A stretch of DNA of 6,369 bases from Elusimicrobiota bacterium. GTDB taxonomy: Bacteria; Elusimicrobiota; Elusimicrobia; UBA1565; UBA9628. Within the stretch, counting starts at the first letter, position 1; each line of letters starts with the position of its first letter. The stretch is from contig JAGWMT010000186.1 in the NCBI GenBank assembly GCA_028871595.1, positions 1 to 6,369 on the forward strand, read 5' to 3'. Below are positions 1-6,369 of this stretch, one piece after another. The position numbers were made by a program, and so were the translations under genes. The notes beneath the pieces were generated by a model that had not been told where the DNA came from, did no database searches, and was given only the letters and a program-made list of their open reading frames with translations.

Positions 1-264
1 CTGGACTACATGAACATCATGCTGCGCGAGGGGCGGTCCCTGGAGGACGCGGTCCTGGCCGCGGCGCTCAAGCGCCTGCGCCCGATCCTGATGACGGCCG
101 CCGTCATGGTCCTGGGGCTTCTGCCGCTGGCCGTCGGCTGGGGCACCGGTTCCGAACTGCAGAAGCCGCTGGCGATCGCGGTCATCGGCGGGATTCTGAC
201 TTCGACTCTGCTGACCTTGATCGTGCTCCCCGCCGCGGCCCTGATCGCGCGGCGCAAAACCTAA
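1..264 (+). CDS. Heavy-metal RND efflux transporter, C-terminal end (CusA/CzcA type), 5' truncated
   Basis: This is the last 87 codons of an inner-membrane proton-driven RND pump; the reading frame is open through the left edge. The visible part has the features of the end of the HME-RND family: a cytoplasmic loop with REGRSLEDAV, then KRLRPILMTA leading into a penultimate helix (MVLGLLPLAVG), the loop GTGSELQKPLAIAVIGG, and a last helix (STLLTLIVLPAAAL) followed by a short basic tail RRKT. This family exports Cu+/Ag+ or Zn2+/Co2+/Cd2+ across the envelope with a periplasmic adaptor and an outer-membrane channel. The metal-selective residues lie further upstream, outside the window, so CusA and CzcA cannot be told apart. 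The stop codon is followed within ten bases by the start of a relic gene, so the pump gene probably sat inside a longer operon. Confidence 0.9.
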   Translation: MDYMNIMLREGRSLEDAVLAAALKRLRPILMTAAVMVLGLLPLAVGWGTGSELQKPLAIAVIGGILTSTLLTLIVLPAAALIARRKT

Positions 265-462: not shown

Positions 463-478
463 ATGACAGGATTGTCAT
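463..478 (+). promoter_or_regulatory. CusR/CopR-like operator 1 (perfect inverted repeat)
   Basis: The sequence ATGACAGGATTGTCAT is a perfect 6-4-6 inverted repeat. It fits the copper-box consensus known for OmpR-family regulators (E. coli CusR, Pseudomonas CopR: TGACA-N4-TGTnAT). Its right end is 45 bases before the A of the ATG at 523 and 32 bp before the -10 box. The same distances occur at two other promoters in this window. The likely ligand is a response regulator partnered with the kinase at the right end of the window (inference). Confidence 0.75.
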
Positions 479-510
479 GCCCTGGAAAGCTTATTGGCGC
501 GCCGCAAGCT

Positions 511-516
511 TATCCT
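511..516 (+). promoter_or_regulatory. -10 box (TATCCT) of the DUF347 gene
   Basis: TATCCT is separated from the ATG at 523 by exactly six bases, so transcription would begin at or within a base or two of the start codon (leaderless). The position for a -35 box (about 488-493) reads AGCTTA, which is no match, as expected of an activator-dependent promoter. The spacer contains AAGCTTAT twice (487-494 and 506-513) around the palindrome GGCGCGCC (496-503); their role is unknown. Confidence 0.6.
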
Positions 517-522
517 ATCGTC

Positions 523-1353
523 ATGAAAACTCCATCGACGAACGCGATGCCGGTCGAGCAATTTCTCAACAAAGTCCCGGAAGTCACGGTCTATTTTTGG
601 ATCATCAAAGTATTGTGCACGACGATCGGGGAGACCGCCGCCGACTACCTCAACGAAACGCTCCATTTCGGCTTGACGGGGACTTCGCTCGTCATGGGAG
701 CGCTGCTGGCCGTCGTCCTGCTCTTTCAGTTCCGTAAGAAGAAATATGTACCGTCAATCTACTGGCTCGCCGTGGTCCTTCTGAGCGTGGTCGGAACCCT
801 GATCACCGACAACTTGACGGACCACCTCGGCGTTCCTCTGACGACGACGACTATGGTCTTTTCTGTTTTGCTGCTTCTGACTTTCGCGGCGTGGTATTCG
901 TCCGAGAAGACCCTTTCCGTGCATTCCATTTTGACGACCCGCCGCGAGGTCTTCTATTGGGTGACGATCCTGTTCACGTTCGCCCTGGGCACGGCCGCAG
1001 GCGACCTCTCCGCGGAAAAGCTCGGTTTGGGGTACTTGACCTCTCTGATCATCTTCTTCGGCCTCATCGCGGCCGTGACGGCGGCGCATTACGCCATCAG
1101 GAAGATCCTGGGCATGGAACACCGACATCAGTCGACAAACGCGGTCGCCTCGTTCTGGCTGGCTTACATCCTGACGCGGCCCCTCGGCGCGTCGATCGGC
1201 GACTTCCTGTCTCAGGATCGCTCCGCCGGCGGCCTCGGCCTAGGAACGACGGCGACCAGCGCGCTCTTCCTTGCCGCGATCCTGATTTTGGTCGGATATC
1301 TCACGCTGACGAAAAAAGACGTGATCAAGTCCGTCGCCCGGCAGGAACAGTAA
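523..1353 (+). CDS. DUF347/COG4705 integral membrane protein with four two-helix repeats
   Basis: This 276-residue inner-membrane protein of unknown function belongs to the family built from four DUF347 repeats, each with two membrane segments and a conserved Trp. The repeats can be seen directly: W26-G36-D41, W81-G91-D96, W146-G156-D161 and W212-G222-D227 all fit W-x9-G-x4-D with identical spacing. Each is followed by a Gly/Thr-rich turn and a second hydrophobic helix, giving about eight helices. The intramembrane aspartates suggest cation handling, but no substrate is established. The ATG at 523 is chosen because it lies six bases after a -10 box, as at two other promoters here. An in-frame ATG at 547 is the alternative. 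The longer frame from GTG 460 would translate the operator. The gene is monocistronic by position, 69 bases before the next start, with its own copper-box-like operator. The cytoplasmic loop MEHRHQ (198-203) has two His. Confidence 0.85.
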   Translation: MKTPSTNAMPVEQFLNKVPEVTVYFWIIKVLCTTIGETAADYLNETLHFGLTGTSLVMGALLAVVLLFQFRKKKYVPSIYWLAVVLLSVVGTLITDNLTDHLGVPLTTTTMVFSVLLLLTFAAWYSSEKTLSVHSILTTRREVFYWVTILFTFALGTAAGDLSAEKLGLGYLTSLIIFFGLIAAVTAAHYAIRKILGMEHRHQSTNAVASFWLAYILTRPLGASIGDFLSQDRSAGGLGLGTTATSALFLAAILILVGYLTLTKKDVIKSVARQEQ

Positions 1354-1362
1354 ACCGCCGGC

Positions 1363-1378
1363 ATGTCAGGAGTGTCAT
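1363..1378 (+). promoter_or_regulatory. CusR/CopR-like operator 2
   Basis: ATGTCAGGAGTGTCAT matches operator 1 (463-478) at 14 of 16 bases. It again ends 45 bases before the start codon (ATG at 1423), with 32 bp to the -10 box. Here the left arm is TGTCA, so the site reads as a direct repeat TGTCA-N4-TGTCA rather than an inverted one. This could mean a different affinity for the regulator. It begins nine bases after the stop codon of the DUF347 gene. Confidence 0.72.
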
Positions 1379-1379
1379 C

Positions 1380-1405
1380 CCCGCGCAAGGCGCGCTCCGC
1401 GCGGG
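1380..1405 (+). other. GC-rich inverted repeat inside the promoter spacer
   Basis: CCCGCGC (1380-1386) and GCGCGGG (1399-1405) form a perfect seven-pair stem with a twelve-base loop. It lies between operator 2 and the -10 box, directly downstream of the DUF347 gene. It may end transcription of that gene, but no T-run follows. It may instead be only a GC-rich spacer: the other two promoters have no matching structure at this place. Confidence 0.35.
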
Positions 1406-1410
1406 CGGAC

Positions 1411-1416
1411 TATACT
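1411..1416 (+). promoter_or_regulatory. -10 box (TATACT) of the PepSY-Sel1-lipoprotein operon
   Basis: TATACT is followed by six bases (GAATTC) and then the ATG at 1423, which predicts a leaderless transcript. No -35 hexamer is present at the usual distance (1388-1393 reads AGGCGC). No Shine-Dalgarno sequence lies 5-9 bases before the ATG. The promoter is expected to drive all three overlapping genes up to 3614. Confidence 0.65.
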
Positions 1417-1422
1417 GAATTC

Positions 1423-1989
1423 ATGAAACACATACCCCTGACGTTCGCGATGGCGTTGACGTTCGCCGTCTCGCCGGCAATGGCCGAGACGGCTCCGAAA
1501 ATCGGACAGGACCAGGCCACCAAAACGGTGCTGGCGGCCGTCCCCGGCGCGCGCGTGGAAAGCGCCGAGCATGAACAGGAGGACGGCCACGACATCTGGT
1601 CGTTCGACCTGAAGACGAAGGAAGGCCTGCGCGAGGTGTGGGTGGACGCCCAGACGGGCGCGGTCATTCAAAACGTGCTGGAAACCCCGGCCGAACAGGG
1701 CAAGGAAAAGATCCTGGACAAGGCCGAGGAAGTCGTCAAGAAGCGCATCTCCGGCGAAGTCATCGACAGCAAACAGTCCAAGCTGGGGAAACGCCGCGTG
1801 AGCGAAGTCACGATCAAGGCCAAGGACGGCCGCGTCCTGCTCGTGACGGTGGACGCGGGCAACGATAAGATCCTCAAGATCAGACCGGTCCGCTCCAAGA
1901 AAGACGAGGCGAAGGAGCGCGGCGAGAACGGAGAGAAGGGCGAGGCCGGGGAGAAAGGCGAACACGGGGAACAGGGCGAGCATGACTAG
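1423..1989 (+). CDS. Periplasmic double-PepSY protein with Gly-Glu-X tail
   Basis: A 188-residue exported protein. Residues 1-21 form a signal peptide ending AMA, with cleavage before ETAPK. Two PepSY-like units follow. The first (about 27-86) has helix IGQDQATKTVLAAVPGARV, then strands around HDIWSFDL and LREVWVDAQTGAVI. The second (about 96-155) starts KILDKAEEVVKKRISG and ends RVLLVTVDAGNDKILKI, the typical helix-strand-VDA.TG-like ending. The tail (from 155) is first basic, then runs as seven Gly-Glu-X triplets ending HD, rich in acids with two His. PepSY proteins are often encoded near two-component systems and envelope-stress or metal regulons. They are thought to inhibit proteases or sense the envelope; the target here is unknown. 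The ATG at 1423 is chosen over 1363, which lies in the operator and would hide the signal peptide. The 3' end overlaps the next gene by 8 bases. Confidence 0.85.
   Translation: MKHIPLTFAMALTFAVSPAMAETAPKIGQDQATKTVLAAVPGARVESAEHEQEDGHDIWSFDLKTKEGLREVWVDAQTGAVIQNVLETPAEQGKEKILDKAEEVVKKRISGEVIDSKQSKLGKRRVSEVTIKAKDGRVLLVTVDAGNDKILKIRPVRSKKDEAKERGENGEKGEAGEKGEHGEQGEHD
1921..1983 (+). repeat. Seven tandem Gly-Glu-X codon triplets
   Basis: Seven consecutive nine-base units encode GEN, GEK, GEA, GEK, GEH, GEQ and GEH, just before the final Asp and stop of the PepSY protein. Gly codons alternate among GGC, GGA and GGG, and Glu among GAG and GAA. The array is therefore not a fresh exact duplication and the peptide pattern appears to be maintained. 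The Gly-every-third-residue pattern is collagen-like but short. Confidence 0.8.
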
Positions 1990-1992
1990 CCG
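1981..1992 (+). repeat. Gene-junction repeat, copy 1 (CATGACTAGCCG)
   Basis: This 12-mer holds the start of the Sel1 gene (ATG 1982) and the end of the PepSY gene (TAG 1987-1989). An identical 12-mer forms the next junction at 2900-2911. It encodes HD-stop in the upstream frame and MTSR (with the next base) in the downstream frame. The 8-base overlap implies translational coupling by termination and re-initiation. Confidence 0.8.
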
Positions 1993-2908
1993 ATTCCGGG
2001 TCGCCGCCGCGGGGGGACTGATCGTCCTTGCGGCGGCGGCCTCTCACGCGGGTCATCTGGAGGACGCAAAGACGGCCTACGAGGCCGAACATTACGAAGA
2101 GGCGGCCGAGGATTTGAGGCAGGCGGCCGCAGTGGGCGACGCGAAAGCGGAATACGGCCTGGGCCTTCTCTATGAGCATGGACGCGGCGTGCCGCAAGAC
2201 GTAAGCCGGGCCTTCGAGTGGTACCTGAAAGCGGCGGCCCAAGGGAACGCGGCGGCCCAGAACAACCTAGGCTATATGTACTCGCTCGGGCGCGGCGTGA
2301 AGCAGAGCGACGCGGAGGCCTTCCATTGGTTCTCGCGGGCTTCCGATTCCGCGAGCAGTTGGGACGAAGCCGTAGCCTGGTGCAACCTGGGCAACATGTA
2401 CTTGCACGGCCGCGGCGTCAAGAAAGACGCGAAGAAGGCATTCGGGCTGTATTTGAAGGCGGCCCGGAAGGACAACCCATACGCCCAGAACAATCTGGCT
2501 TATCTCTACGAGCACGGGGTGGGCGTACGCCGCGACTTGGCCCAGGCCGCGCGTTGGTATCGCGAGGCGGCCGAACAGGGGTTTCCGTTCGCCGAGGACA
2601 ACCTCGCGATCATGTACGAAACCGGGCGCGGCGTGGCGCGCGACGAAATCGAAGCCGTCAAGTGGTACTCTCTAGCCGCTCGGCACGGCAGTGCGATGGC
2701 GTTTTACAAACTGGGTCGCGCGAGTGAACTGGGTCGCGGGACGGCCATGGATATGGTCGCCGCCTACCAATGGTACTTCCTGGGAGCGGCGCGGGGGGAC
2801 GGCCCCTCCCAGGACGGCCGGCGGCGTCTGGACGGGGTGTTGACCGCCGATCAGCGCGCCCGGGCCGAGACGCTCGCCGGCGCCTGGGAGGCCGCCGACC
2901 ATGACTAG
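1982..2908 (+). CDS. Secreted Sel1-repeat (TPR-like) protein
   Basis: A 308-residue exported protein. The signal peptide is about residues 1-23 (MTSRFR, then an Ala/Leu-rich core, cleavage after SHA). A half-repeat (AYEAEHYEEAAEDLRQAA) is followed by six Sel1 repeats at about 53-88, 89-127, 128-163, 164-200, 201-236 and 237-272. Each has an A..NLG.MY..GRGV..D...A..WY..AA.. pattern, and the third spaced copy follows a slightly longer unit (SDSASSWDEA). The C-terminus is a short charged helix ending HD. Sel1 arrays form helical scaffolds that bind other proteins; several act in signalling or as periplasmic partners of envelope complexes. No catalytic motif is seen. The gene overlaps both neighbours by 8 bases through the same junction sequence, so it should be made together with the PepSY protein and the lipoprotein. 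Only a weak ribosome-binding site (AGGGCGAG) precedes the ATG. Confidence 0.9.
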   Translation: MTSRFRVAAAGGLIVLAAAASHAGHLEDAKTAYEAEHYEEAAEDLRQAAAVGDAKAEYGLGLLYEHGRGVPQDVSRAFEWYLKAAAQGNAAAQNNLGYMYSLGRGVKQSDAEAFHWFSRASDSASSWDEAVAWCNLGNMYLHGRGVKKDAKKAFGLYLKAARKDNPYAQNNLAYLYEHGVGVRRDLAQAARWYREAAEQGFPFAEDNLAIMYETGRGVARDEIEAVKWYSLAARHGSAMAFYKLGRASELGRGTAMDMVAAYQWYFLGAARGDGPSQDGRRRLDGVLTADQRARAETLAGAWEAADHD

Positions 2909-2911
2909 CCG
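2900..2911 (+). repeat. Gene-junction repeat, copy 2 (CATGACTAGCCG)
   Basis: Identical to 1981-1992. It contains the ATG (2901) of the lipoprotein gene and the TAG (2906-2908) of the Sel1 gene. A Shine-Dalgarno-like GGGAGG at 2886-2891, nine bases upstream of the ATG, supports initiation here. Outside the 12-mer the two junctions differ, apart from general GC richness. Confidence 0.8.
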
Positions 2912-3614
2912 CGCGCGGCTTCTCCTATCCCTGCTTCTGGCGGCCGCGACGTTGTCCTCCTGCGCGCCGGCGGCGGTCGTCGTCGTCAGCTCCGCCTACG
3001 ACCCCGCGGTGACCCGCCGAGTCGCGCTCGTCTCCTTCGACGACTATCCGGGTACGCCCGGCTCAGGTGAGATCGCGGCGGGCATCTTCGACAAGTACCT
3101 CCTGCTCGGCGGCTACCGTCTGATGGAGCGCCGACAGGTGGTCCAGGTGCTCCGTGAGCACGCGTTCGAGCTCTCCGGCTCCTTCGACCGCAATCAAGTC
3201 CGCGCGCTGGGCAAGCTCCTGGGCGTCGACGCGCTGGCCTTCGGGTCGCTGACCGACTTTACGGACGCGCGCCAGCAGACATCGCTGGTGGACATGCCGC
3301 TGGAAAACACGAATCCGATCTACGGGCAGGTCGTGACCGTCCAGAAGAACCGCGGCACACGGGTCACGACGATCCAGAACGTCGTGACCGGCTACAGCAC
3401 GACGCGGACGAGCGCGGTGATGCCCCAGACGATGACGTTGCCTGCCCATGTCGGACTGTCCATGCGCCTGGTCGACGCGCGTACGGCCGAGGTCCTTTGG
3501 AGCGCTTCGGCCTCCTCCAGCGGCTCCGACCTGCCGTCCGCGGCGGAAGAGGCCGCCGCGTCCGCGATGAGAGCGGTCGCCGCGCAATTGAAGGCCGCTC
3601 TGCAACACCATTAG
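2901..3614 (+). CDS. CsgG-like lipoprotein
   Basis: A 237-residue lipoprotein. Residues 1-20 form a lipoprotein signal (MTSRAR, poly-Leu core) and the lipidated residue would be C21 in TLSSC. With Ala and Pro at +2/+3 there is no inner-membrane retention Asp, so the outer membrane is likely. From residue 39 it shows the CsgG/GNA1162/LpoB-like pattern: RRVALVSFDDY (first strand), YLLLGGYRLMERRQVVQVLREHAF (the 'vveR..l..iL.E' helix), VRALGKLLGVDALAFGSLTDF (the 'lGkllGad.l..G' motif) and, late, LSMRLVDARTAEVLWSAS, the usual strand before the last helix. In CsgG the insert builds the curli secretion pore; here the insert (about 122-180, Thr/Gln/Val-rich) is different and no curli genes are nearby, so a pore role is not supported. 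Last gene of the three-gene operon, translationally coupled to the Sel1 gene. Confidence 0.8.
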   Translation: MTSRARLLLSLLLAAATLSSCAPAAVVVVSSAYDPAVTRRVALVSFDDYPGTPGSGEIAAGIFDKYLLLGGYRLMERRQVVQVLREHAFELSGSFDRNQVRALGKLLGVDALAFGSLTDFTDARQQTSLVDMPLENTNPIYGQVVTVQKNRGTRVTTIQNVVTGYSTTRTSAVMPQTMTLPAHVGLSMRLVDARTAEVLWSASASSSGSDLPSAAEEAAASAMRAVAAQLKAALQHH

Positions 3615-3625
3615 CCGGGTCCGGC

Positions 3626-3646
3626 GCCCGGGCGAGGCGCTCGGGC
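3626..3646. terminator. Possible bidirectional terminator hairpin between convergent genes
   Basis: GCCCGGGCG (3626-3634) can pair with CGCTCGGGC (3638-3646) as nine pairs including one G-U, with an AGG loop. It fills almost all of the 36-base gap between the plus-strand lipoprotein gene and the minus-strand lipoprotein gene. Neither strand has a T-run after the stem, so it is not a classical intrinsic terminator. Position and stability are the only support. Confidence 0.45.
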
Positions 3647-3650
3647 CTTA

Positions 3651-4418
3651 TCAGTCCGCTCCGTCCTTGGACACGGCCGCGTTCCGCGCCGCGGCTTTCG
3701 TCAGCTTCCTCATCAGGTCGCCGCGCGCCCGATCGAAGACAAGCCCGAGGCGAACTTCTTTTTTCGCACGCTCGGCCGACGGCAGTTTCTTAAGGGCCTT
3801 GCGGTCCCGGTCGCCCCAGGCCCAGGCGCGCCAGATCACGCGTCCGTCTCTCGCGCTGACGAGCTCCGCCTTGAGCACCACCGGCGTGAACCAGCGGTCG
3901 AGGAGAAAGACGCCGCCCACGTCCACGGCGACCTCCTGCAGAACTTCCTCGCAGGCCACGGCGATCGCGGCGGGGACGCTTCCGGCGGCTTCTGCGACCG
4001 CGACGCCCTGAACCGTCCCCTCGACCAGGCCGCCGCCGAGAAGAAGGAATATCCAGGAGCGTTTGATGCGGCCATAGCCCAGGACCGTTACGCGGAGATT
4101 CACGTCCGCCGTCGCGGTGCTCGCGGAAAAGTAGTAGCTCTGGTCCAGCGCCGAGGCGAAGGAGTCGCGCATCGAGGCGGAAAGCGCCGCCGTCGCGCTC
4201 GAGACCGCGGACGCTTCCGCGTCCGCCGACGGCGCGGGGCCCGCCGGGACCGTCTCGATCTCCTTCAGATGGCGGATCTTGACTTCAAAACGAACAGGGA
4301 GGACGGCCACGCGGAGCTTGCGCGGAGCGACGAGCTCGACCCCATGTTTGGCCCAGGTCGCGCAGCCCGACGCCAAGACGGCAATCAAGAGCAGGCCGCT
4401 TCCCGCGCGGGGTCGCAT
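3651..4418 (-). CDS. Putative lipoprotein, CsgG/LpoB-like fold suspected
   Basis: A 255-residue protein with a lipoprotein-type signal peptide: MRPRAGSG, hydrophobic LLLIAVLAS, then C19 in ASGC. Ala at -3 makes the lipobox slightly weak. The mature part starts a strand KLRVAVLPVRFEVK. It continues with an Ala/Ser-rich linker and helix (SATAALSASMRDSFASAL), a strand with ADVNLRVTVLGYG, a hydrophobic stretch SWIFLLLGGGLVEG, and then VVLKAELVSARDGRVIWRAWAWG. The order VAVLP...ADV.L.V...AELVSARDG.VIW resembles the strand pattern of the CsgG-like lipoprotein encoded opposite it, but the central 'veR' helix is not evident, so this is inference. The C-terminus is a basic helix. The start at 4418 is chosen because it overlaps the TAA of the upstream gene (TAATG) and precedes the signal peptide. 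The longer in-frame extension to 4817 runs inside that gene and is not credible. Confidence 0.7.
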   Translation of the reverse strand: MRPRAGSGLLLIAVLASGCATWAKHGVELVAPRKLRVAVLPVRFEVKIRHLKEIETVPAGPAPSADAEASAVSSATAALSASMRDSFASALDQSYYFSASTATADVNLRVTVLGYGRIKRSWIFLLLGGGLVEGTVQGVAVAEAAGSVPAAIAVACEEVLQEVAVDVGGVFLLDRWFTPVVLKAELVSARDGRVIWRAWAWGDRDRKALKKLPSAERAKKEVRLGLVFDRARGDLMRKLTKAAARNAAVSKDGAD

Positions 4419-5134
4419 TATGGGATTTCCGTGATCGTCAGATGCTTGAAGTCGACCAGAATCTTCCCTCCCCGGCGATGCGCGCTGAGCAGGCGGGCGT
4501 ATTGCGCGGGCGGGAAGAATTCCTTGAAATCCTGGTTCACGTCCTGCCAGACCGCGTCCGGGAACTTCGACGTGTCCATCCCGATCTCGTAGCGGAAGAT
4601 GAAGTTTCCGCTCGTCCAGAGCGGCGCGTCCGGCGCGTCGGCCGTAGCCGACGACGGCAAGGCCGCGGGGTCCGCGGCGGGGACGGGCGCGGCCTTCACA
4701 GAATCGAGTTCCGCTCGACGCAGCGGCAGCCAATAGCCGAGGGAGCCGAAGCCGACCTCGCGGCTCAGACGATAGGCTTGGTAGCTGACGCTGAACGGAT
4801 AGTTGCCCGCGCCCCAAGTCTGTTTTTCCACCAGGCAGTTCGCGCCGAGTTCGCCGCCCTTGTCTTTAGCGAGCCGCTGTGCGCCCACGTACCACTGCGT
4901 GTAAACAGTGACGTGGATCGCGCCCAGTTCTTCGAGCCGCGCTCCTCTTCGCCGATCGGAAAGAGCCCGGCAGTCGCCAATGACCACGTCGCTGGGCTCA
5001 AGGCTCGGGTAGCGTCCCGCGGACGGCAACCGCGCGACTTCGACGCGCGGCGGAACGTACTGCGCCCGGACCGGTACGGCCGTCAGGAGCGCCAAGATTG
5101 CGGCCAGGGCCGAGTATCGGGTGAATATATCCAT
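4418..5134 (-). CDS. Secreted protein of unknown function
   Basis: A 238-residue protein not assigned to a family. Residues 1-24 form a signal peptide (MDIFTRYSALAAILALLTAVPVRA, cut before QYVPP is likely); no lipobox. The first half (about 45-125) has VVIGDCRALSD, LGAIHVTVYTQWYVGAQRLAKDKGGELGANCLVEK and SVSYQAYRL. A helix ending in G-A-N followed by Cys and a strand, and two cysteines (C55, C100) that could form a disulfide, recall small envelope sensor domains such as RcsF or DUF4156, without a firm match. An Ala/Pro linker (about 147-170) leads to a second part, LWTSGNFIFRYEIGMD to ILVDFKHLTITEIP, mostly strands. It has its own promoter with the copper-box-like operator and is coupled to the lipoprotein gene by a TAATG overlap, so the two products probably act together in the envelope. 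Confidence 0.75.
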   Translation of the reverse strand: MDIFTRYSALAAILALLTAVPVRAQYVPPRVEVARLPSAGRYPSLEPSDVVIGDCRALSDRRRGARLEELGAIHVTVYTQWYVGAQRLAKDKGGELGANCLVEKQTWGAGNYPFSVSYQAYRLSREVGFGSLGYWLPLRRAELDSVKAAPVPAADPAALPSSATADAPDAPLWTSGNFIFRYEIGMDTSKFPDAVWQDVNQDFKEFFPPAQYARLLSAHRRGGKILVDFKHLTITEIP

Positions 5135-5140
5135 TGGCCC

Positions 5141-5146
5141 ATTATA
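5141..5146 (-). promoter_or_regulatory. -10 box (TATAAT) of the minus-strand secreted protein/lipoprotein pair
   Basis: On the minus strand a consensus TATAAT is followed by six bases (GGGCCA) and the ATG at 5134, the same spacing as at 511-523 and 1411-1423. The position of a -35 box (5169-5164, minus strand) reads AGGCGA, no match. A leaderless transcript is predicted. Confidence 0.7.
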
Positions 5147-5178
5147 CTCCGCCGGAGTCCGCGTCGCCTTACAGAGGC

Positions 5179-5194
5179 ATTACGACCGTGTCAG
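5179..5194 (-). promoter_or_regulatory. CusR/CopR-like operator 3, overlapping the kinase stop codon
   Basis: On the minus strand the site reads CTGACACGGTCGTAAT. It fits TGACA-N4-TGTnAT with one mismatch (C for the first T of the right arm). It ends 45 bases before the ATG at 5134 and 32 bp before the -10 box, exactly as at the two plus-strand promoters. Its TGA is also the stop codon of the kinase gene (5193-5191), so the operator is embedded in the gene end. It is weaker as a sequence match than operators 1 and 2; the conserved position is its main support. Confidence 0.62.
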
Positions 5195-6369
5195 GCGGCG
5201 GGAAAGCTCAGGAGGAACGCCGATCCTTCCCCGGTCCGGCTCTCGACTGAGGCCCGTCCTCCGTGGGCCTCGACGATCGCCTTGACCAGGCTGAGGCCGA
5301 GTCCCAAGCCGCGCTCGGAACGGCTGCGGTCACCGCGGAACAGTCGGTCCCAAATCCGCGGCAGGTCGGTCTCAGGGATGCCGGGACCGTCGTCGCGCAC
5401 CGAGAGGACGATCCGGTCGTCCGCGAGGGAAGCCATCGCGATGATCGTGCCGCCGCGCGGCGTGAATTTGACCGCATTGTCGACCAGATTGGCGACGGCC
5501 CGGCGCAGGCGCGCGCGATCCGCGCGCAGGACGAGTCCGGCGGGCGCCTCGGCCTGAAGGCGGAGGCCTTTTTCCTCGGCCGACGGCCCGTAAAGTTCGA
5601 CGGCCTCCTCGAGGAGACCCCGGGCGTCCACGTTCTCCAAACGAAGCCGCATCGTGCCGGACTCGGCCTCGGCGACGTCCATCAATCCGTCGAGCATCGC
5701 CAGGATCGCATCGGATTCCTCCACGCAGTCGGCGAGCGATTCCTTCAACGCCGCAGCGTCGCCCGAACGAAGCGCCAGTTCCGCTCCGCCCCGCAAACGC
5801 GTCAGCGGAGTGCGCAGGTCGTGCGCGGCGTCGTCCAGCGCGCCGCGCATGCCCGCGACCAGCGCCGCGACCTTATCGAGCATGCCGTTAAACAGCAACC
5901 CCAGTTCGTCGAGCTCGTCGCCGGTCCCGCGAATCGCCACGCGGGAGTCGAGCGAGCCTCCTTCGATAGCGCGGATCGTCGCGATCAAATCCCGCAGAGG
6001 AGACAAGGCTCGCCGGGTGAGGAGGATCCCGCCGACGATCGAAAGCAGGGCCAGCGGCAGAAGGACGGCGGCGACGATTCCGCGGAACCTCTCCAGGAAC
6101 GCTTCTCGCGCCGCGGTGCCCATCCCGACTTGCAGGAGGGCCCCCCCTTCGAGCCTTTGCGAGGCGACGTCAAGCGCGTCTTCGTCGTCCGGGGACGGCG
6201 CGGTCCCCCAGGCCGGGGCTTGCCCTTGCGGCGGAGCGAGACGGCCCAGGTCATAACGCGCTTGGGGGTTGGGATCGGCGAAAGCCATGACCGCCCCGTC
6301 GGGTTCGATGAGGCGGATGTAGGCGGCGCCCTCGGGAAGGATCTTCTGGGACGCGGCTTCCTCGCGCAG
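5191..6369 (-). CDS. Sensor histidine kinase (HAMP-HisKA-HATPase), 5' end beyond the window
   Basis: The visible 392 residues are the C-terminal majority of an inner-membrane two-component sensor kinase; the frame is open through the right edge, and the internal ATG at 6288 is not the start. In order, numbering from the edge: the end of the periplasmic sensor domain (to about residue 96), a membrane helix (about 97-117, IVAAVLLPLALLSIVGGILL), HAMP (about 118-167, with RRALSPLRDL and GDELDELGLLFNGML), H-box AAHDLRTPLTRL with phospho-accepting H183 (codon 5823-5821), N-box NLVDNAVKFTP, G1 box RDDGPGIP, F-box IWDRLFRGD and G2 box GLGLGLSLVKAIVEAHGG. All catalytic boxes look intact. The layout is that of the CusS/CopS/QseC-like class paired with OmpR-family regulators. 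No regulator gene is in the window. The likely place is just upstream, beyond 6369. Copper-box-like operators at its 3' end and two other promoters suggest these are the targets of its partner (inference). Confidence 0.92.
   Translation of the reverse strand: MREEAASQKILPEGAAYIRLIEPDGAVMAFADPNPQARYDLGRLAPPQGQAPAWGTAPSPDDEDALDVASQRLEGGALLQVGMGTAAREAFLERFRGIVAAVLLPLALLSIVGGILLTRRALSPLRDLIATIRAIEGGSLDSRVAIRGTGDELDELGLLFNGMLDKVAALVAGMRGALDDAAHDLRTPLTRLRGGAELALRSGDAAALKESLADCVEESDAILAMLDGLMDVAEAESGTMRLRLENVDARGLLEEAVELYGPSAEEKGLRLQAEAPAGLVLRADRARLRRAVANLVDNAVKFTPRGGTIIAMASLADDRIVLSVRDDGPGIPETDLPRIWDRLFRGDRSRSERGLGLGLSLVKAIVEAHGGRASVESRTGEGSAFLLSFPAA

Follow-up and report, generated by a model that had tools for sequence, protein, structure and literature searches.

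The window analysed in this study is the whole 6369-bp stretch (66% GC) at the start of contig JAGWMT010000186.1 from an Elusimicrobiota bacterium. Three of its promoters share one design, in which a 16-bp inverted repeat is followed after 32 bp by a -10 box and after a further 6 bp by an ATG. With a probability of about 0.88, we consider the three promoters to be controlled by a single heavy-metal response regulator of the OmpR family, of CusR/CopR/AgrR type, acting by the mechanism proposed below. The shared design is a real and well supported observation, and this type of switch is known from other bacteria.

Gene content and promoters of the window

The promoters drive genes on both strands (Table 1). 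The PepSY, Sel1 and CsgG-like lipoprotein genes on the plus strand are predicted to form one operon. The minus strand reads in the order sensor kinase, secreted protein and lipoprotein-like gene, and the last two would likewise constitute one operon. Close relatives of the DUF347 protein include Elusimicrobia metagenome-assembled genomes (MAGs). A 56-amino-acid open frame (274-444), with a signal-peptide-like start as judged by eye, lies between the resistance-nodulation-division (RND) pump and the DUF347 gene; no Pfam family was found for it, and it may be a remnant.

Table 1. Positions of genes and promoter elements in the window.
Feature	Position	Strand	Remarks
RND efflux pump, C-terminus	1..264	+	best NCBIfam match CusA/CzcA family, partial, 94.6 bits
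Operator 1, ATGACAGGATTGTCAT, 16-bp inverted repeat ATGACA-N4-TGTCAT	463..478	+	upstream of DUF347 gene
Third half-site GAAAG, promoter 1	485..489	+	column conservation across aligned promoters
-10 box TATCCT, promoter 1	511..516	+	ATG at 523
DUF347 membrane protein gene (PF03988)	523..1353	+	225.5 bits; ATG 6 bp past -10 box
Operator 2, ATGTCAGGAGTGTCAT	1363..1378	+	upstream of PepSY gene; PepSY promoter of G259 comparable
Third half-site GCAAG, promoter 2	1385..1389	+	promoter alignment
-10 box TATACT, promoter 2	1411..1416	+	ATG at 1423
PepSY-domain protein gene (PF03413)	1423..1989	+	signal-peptide-like start (by eye) at predicted leaderless ATG
Sel1-repeat protein gene	1982..2908	+	181.1 bits; overlaps PepSY gene
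CsgG-like lipoprotein gene	2901..3614	+	33.2 bits, cut-off 20.8; overlaps Sel1 gene
Lipoprotein-like gene	3651..4418	-	after secreted-protein gene; no Pfam family
Secreted protein gene	4418..5134	-	signal-like start by eye; no Pfam family
-10 box TATAAT, promoter 3	5141..5146	-	ATG at 5134
Third half-site GTAAG, promoter 3	5168..5172	-	promoter alignment
Operator 3, CTGACACGGTCGTAAT	5179..5194	-	includes histidine-kinase stop codon; G259 counterpart L136:12104
Heavy-metal-type sensor histidine kinase gene	5191..6369	-	TIGR01386, 222.5 bits, cut-off 292.55; N-terminus past window end

A preliminary description, made from the letters of the window, had located the 16-mers, the -10 hexamers and the ATGs, and all three sets of coordinates are correct to the base, with the spacings of 32 bp and 6 bp exact in every promoter. 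Our count by eye also reproduces its agreement between the 16-mers, which is nine of sixteen positions for all three and 14 of 16 for sites 1 and 2. Its statement that a -35 box is absent holds as well: the hexamers 17 bp 5' of the -10 boxes, read by eye, are AGCTTA, AGGCGC and AGGCGA, none of them TTGACA-like. Against ATKACA-N4-TGTMAT, with 12 specified positions, sites 1, 2 and 3 fit at 12, 11 and 10 positions, site 2 departing at position 4 and site 3 at positions 1 and 11. The TGA of the kinase gene (5193-5191, minus strand) sits inside operator 3, a feature absent from the preliminary description, and the same arrangement occurs in the related genome G259 (L136:12104-12107), where again one TGA has two roles.

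We further discovered a third element, GNAAG, which the preliminary description did not contain. In an ungapped alignment of 18 promoters it begins 6 bp past the 16-mer and is nearly invariant (G in 18/18, third-position A in 17/18, fourth-position A in 18/18, last G in 17/18). The GTMA in the promoter-proximal half-site lies 11 bp away, which makes the element an in-phase direct repeat. A matrix of 12 non-redundant promoters, from which six near-duplicates of the 18 were omitted (five of L118 and one of L135), gives 1.37 bits per column for this element and 1.41 for the -10 box; the proximal half-site (1.59) is better conserved than the distal one (1.08).

In the window, the pattern TGWCAN5GTNAT has four matches at three places, whereas 200 shuffles average 0.01. 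With 3 mismatches allowed, the looser ATGACAN4TGTCAT matches three times, versus a mean of 0.56, and this number was reached by 6 of the 200 shuffles. The latter result, together with the fact that the 16-mers were picked by eye, speaks for a coincidence of GC-rich sequence and post-hoc alignment. Because of this choice by eye, related genomes provide a better test than shuffles of the window.

Conservation of the promoter design in related genomes

Two genomes with similar gene clusters were compared: G001, an Elusimicrobia MAG reached via a DUF347 search (contig L001), and G259, reached via the secreted protein. In G001 the 16-mer was found at three places with one mismatch and at none in the reversed control. 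Two of these places match the full design of 16-mer, 32 bp, TATACT, 6 bp and GTG, and both start Sel1 genes, which lie in paralogous clusters together with DUF347, PepSY, a CusR-like regulator, a heavy-metal-type kinase and the secreted protein. A third, partial cluster was seen at a contig end in G001, and each of L117, L118 and L135 has at least one such promoter. G259 possesses a similar cluster, with a DUF347 protein 84% identical to that of the window.

The spacing was examined in the five cluster loci of both genomes by recording TAnnnT hexamers beside 16-mers, with any gap between 5 and 79 bp allowed; the two -10 boxes CATACT and CACAAT fall outside this count. Of the 16 such hexamers found in range of the 30 sixteen-mers, 11 stand at exactly 32 bp, while the other 74 gaps share five. 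Simulation gave a mean of 0.02 at 32 bp and a maximum of one in 60 runs. Elsewhere in the two genomes, 0 of 44 sixteen-mers have TAnnnT at 32 bp, although these include one on L176 that is a likely true target with a gap of 31. This test was not blind, as the first 32-bp sites in each genome had already been seen.

A fixed-spacing matrix weighted by the three window promoters ranks 15 sites at the top of the cluster loci, with scores from 23.4 to 37.0 bits; the next best score in the same loci is 9.1, and the best in 198,751 control bases, where some loci overlap, is 17.4. The five loci comprise 69,241 bases, about 100 of them shared by two loci. The weights of this matrix come from the window alone and its columns were chosen after the promoter alignment; fixed-gap matrices are blind to gaps other than 32 bp. 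Both the 16-mer and its distance to the -10 box, on whose conservation in relatives the preliminary description had staked its claim, are therefore kept in G001 and G259. This recovery of sites in two other genomes, with a free gap as well as with a matrix weighted by the window, leaves coincidence with a negligible chance of being the explanation.

The genes behind the box are of several kinds. In G259 it stands before DUF347, PepSY, the secreted protein and an outer-membrane efflux (OEP/TolC-type) gene, after which come adaptor- and RND-type genes. In G001 the box lies ahead of Sel1, PepSY, DUF347, a DUF2127 gene and a glycosyltransferase, and also an OEP gene on another contig, where a gap of 31 bp and 7 bp to the GTG leave the sum unchanged. 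In two clusters the DUF2127 gene (Pfam assignment checked in L118 and L135) precedes the regulator-kinase genes, which are therefore probably autoregulated. The local regulon under a CusR/CopR-like operator, put forward for the window, thus has the same pattern in both relatives.

The idea that the design accompanies DUF347 as a rule was rejected: in 80 DUF347 loci of many phyla among the matches listed, plus seven further loci (1,417,493 bases), the best score outside L001 is 15.7, and L001 contains five sites at 31.2 bits and more. Of 247 genomes sampled across the phylum, only 2 were found to have DUF347 itself, one at 39% identity, and this rarity may denote gain by transfer; viral contigs contain one distant match. 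Homologues of the secreted protein occur in 8 of 235 genomes of the class, the close ones only in G001 and G259, where they adjoin the kinase. Distant copies are present in G219 and G260, some adjacent to each other.

Regulator, signal and transcript start

In G001 and G259 a CusR-like regulator adjoins the kinase. Its best NCBIfam model is TIGR01387, with 219.8 and 233.7 bits respectively (cut-off 279.2), and Asp51 and the recognition helix are kept at 42-47% identity to CusR. The CusR/CopR-like motif of the preliminary description is in print, as TGACA-N4-TGTCA for CopR/CusR (PMC12428095) and as CTGACAn5GTAAT for CopR of P. aeruginosa (PMC11195947). Its reading of the sites as CusR/CopR-like operators that define a local regulon is supported.

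Several results weigh against a single regulator of this type behind the three promoters. The regulators, the kinases and the RND pump of G259 all score below the NCBIfam cut-offs, and the window shows the kinase only, the cognate regulator gene being expected past its end. The two clusters of G001 are paralogues and hence not independent. In G219 and G260, whose secreted-protein homologues are 49-50% identical, the promoter was not found in the stretches taken, and the full pattern with 2 mismatches occurs in 33 of 247 genomes phylum-wide versus 23 for the reversed control. Among characterised loci, E. coli cusR has no third half-site in the promoter alignment, and no TAnnnT was found at 32-33 bp for E. 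coli hprR, plasmid silR, Pantoea or Sphingobium. On the plasmid pMOL30 of Cupriavidus metallidurans no 16-mer reached 11/12, and the 52 that reached 9/12 showed no clear peak in their gaps. The periplasmic His/Met loop of CusS, which binds metal, is missing from the kinases of L117, L118, L136 and the window, all of which show a gap opposite MMMPGHGHGHMEH.

Since this loop is missing, neither copper as the signal nor a copper sensor proper is supported. The chances are about even that the operator belongs to a related regulator which senses something other than copper or silver, such as zinc (CzcR), reactive species (HprR) or another envelope stress. Besides the absent loop, this is favoured by the near-equal scores of the CusR and HprR models for the G001 regulator (197.8 and 197.1 bits), by the similar layout at E. 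coli hiuH and by the single palindrome used by CusR, CopR and CzcR of Pseudomonas (PMC11195947). On the other side, RND pumps with CusA/CzcA as their best model accompany the clusters, and a role in metal transport has been proposed for DUF347 in Frankia (PMC4531530). This alternative alters the signal and not the mechanism, and its odds overlap with those of a CusR/CopR/AgrR-type regulator.

The distance of 6 bp between the -10 box and the start codon recurs in 9 of the 18 aligned promoters, across five gene families. One promoter, that of the TolC-type gene in G259, has 7 bp, and in the remaining eight the gene begins at a greater distance, with a GGAGG-type Shine-Dalgarno sequence ahead of five of them. 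The fixed 6-bp distance of the preliminary description consequently holds for the three window promoters and only half of the alignment; as a part of the operator design it was rejected. In all three window promoters a TANNNT lies about 10-12 bp before the start codon, and a Shine-Dalgarno sequence is absent. Such a hexamer at a distance of about 12 bp is described as the mark of leaderless bacterial genes (PMC3160421), and there is precedent for leaderless output in regulons of this sort, since czcI2 of C. metallidurans is reported to be a leaderless target (PMC10127602). The 6-bp promoters probably give leaderless mRNA.

The operators could also be real and the 6-bp distance incidental, with transcription starting elsewhere and mRNAs that are not leaderless, in line with the eight genes that start further downstream and the one with 7 bp. 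We regard this as unlikely, given that the distance is exactly 6 bp in half of the promoters from five families and too short for a Shine-Dalgarno sequence in the mRNA, that PepSY, Sel1, TolC-type and secreted proteins start a signal-peptide-like sequence there (by eye), and that the upstream TANNNT matches the published leaderless mark (PMC3160421). The simplest account would be that the activator fixes the spacing between operator and -10 box and that many targets are leaderless.

Observed directly here are the sequence, the spacing, the conservation in two relatives and the gene neighbourhood, from which we infer binding, activation, transcription starts, operons and the metal. The following mechanism is proposed for the CusR/CopR/AgrR-type regulator. 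By analogy with G001 and G259, it would be encoded just upstream of the kinase, past the window end. It would bind ATKACA-N4-TGTMAT together with the in-phase GNAAG 11 bp on, reaching the site of the missing -35 box, and recruit RNA polymerase to the -10 box, whose distance from the inverted repeat is held at 32 bp. In promoters with the ATG 6 bp past the -10 box, transcription would most likely start at the start codon and the mRNA would be leaderless. Induction would raise a set of envelope and membrane proteins, namely DUF347, PepSY, Sel1, the lipoprotein and the secreted protein, together with an RND efflux operon. Relative to the preliminary description, what is added is the third half-site, the efflux gene in the regulon of the relatives, and the reassignment of the 6 bp to probable leaderless initiation.

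The results indicate that Elusimicrobia share, nearly to the base, the CusR/CopR/AgrR promoter layout known from work in Pseudomonadota, and regulons should therefore be predictable from sequence alone in uncultured genomes, as with the 15 sites retrieved from three. The shared switch would tie DUF347, PepSY, Sel1 and a secreted family without Pfam assignment to an RND-type efflux operon, and offers a clean case of activator-controlled, probably leaderless expression. No title on this regulon in Elusimicrobia was found among the 20 listed of 872 papers in a search of the open-access literature, which is a weak negative. More tentatively, and with the odds against it, the cis-module of about 60 bp (repeat, third half-site, 32 bp, -10 box, 6 bp, start codon) might be a portable unit of Elusimicrobia, in which the activator position sets both the polymerase site and the translation start. 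It might have been repeatedly attached to unrelated genes (DUF347, PepSY, Sel1, glycosyltransferase, secreted protein), in a metal- or envelope-stress regulon whose unnamed proteins would be a new envelope defence set.

Comparison with characterised systems

Nine TAnnnT hexamers at 32-33 bp, versus 0.41 per other gap, were found beside 20 oriented perfect 16-mers in seven proteobacterial comparator loci. Overall, the comparators comprised pMOL30, two regions of the E. coli chromosome and 5 of the 60 plasmid matches listed from 3515 records. The hexamer stands at 33 bp in E. coli hiuH and in silE and silC and at 32 bp in three Variovorax plasmid promoters, and Acinetobacter has it at 32 and 33 bp among several other gaps. 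In the register of GNAAG, E. coli shows GTAAG (hiuH), GTCAC (cusC, silC) and GTCAT (silE). The same geometry was observed on a Variovorax plasmid (L194:7938, minus strand) before a lipid A phosphoethanolamine transferase gene, which links the box to envelope modification.

The intergenic region of E. coli cusR and cusC is alike in the palindrome ATGACA-N4-TGTCAT, with 32 bp to TACTCT on the cusR side and 33 bp to TAAAGT on the cusC side, and the CusR/CusS regulator-kinase pair likewise adjoins an RND system. It differs in that one palindrome serves two divergent genes with start codons well downstream, in the missing third half-site of cusR and in the CusS loop, absent from the kinase of the window. 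Window site 3 matches exactly the CopR consensus of P. aeruginosa, CTGACAn5GTAAT (PMC11195947). The copA1 promoter of C. metallidurans CopR1 on pMOL30, examined for its published start, is alike in CTGTCCGGAATGTAAT, in GTAAG at the same register and in 33 bp to TACTCT. Its start, validated by rapid amplification of cDNA ends (RACE) at 191,243 (PMC7563307), is separated from the -10 box by 8 nt and puts the box centre at -55.5, assuming that the position in the paper equals the coordinates of the sequence record. copA1 differs from the window in its 44-nt leader and its multicopper oxidase operon.

The leaderless genes of PMC3160421 are alike in TANNNT 12 bp before the start codon and the absence of a Shine-Dalgarno sequence; the window differs in that this TANNNT is joined to an activator site at a fixed distance.

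The box also resembles that of AgrR from the silver-responsive AgrRS system of C. metallidurans, which was footprinted on a 6-4-6 repeat with the consensus ATKACANNNNTGTMAT (PMC7380067). In the AgrR operators the promoter-proximal half is better conserved, some have an in-phase direct repeat whose alteration cut activation, and the targets have a fair -10 box and a poor -35 box (PMC7380067). The 16-bp 6-4-6 repeat, the stronger proximal half, the in-phase direct repeat and the fair -10 box without a good -35 box are thus common to both, and the metal and envelope genes activated by AgrR can be likened to the predicted window targets. In the promoter of AgrR itself the box is centred at -43.5, and in most others it lies slightly further upstream (PMC7380067), whereas that of the window would be centred at -52.5 if transcription starts at the start codon. 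The window further differs from AgrR in phylum, in target genes and in its many predicted leaderless targets.

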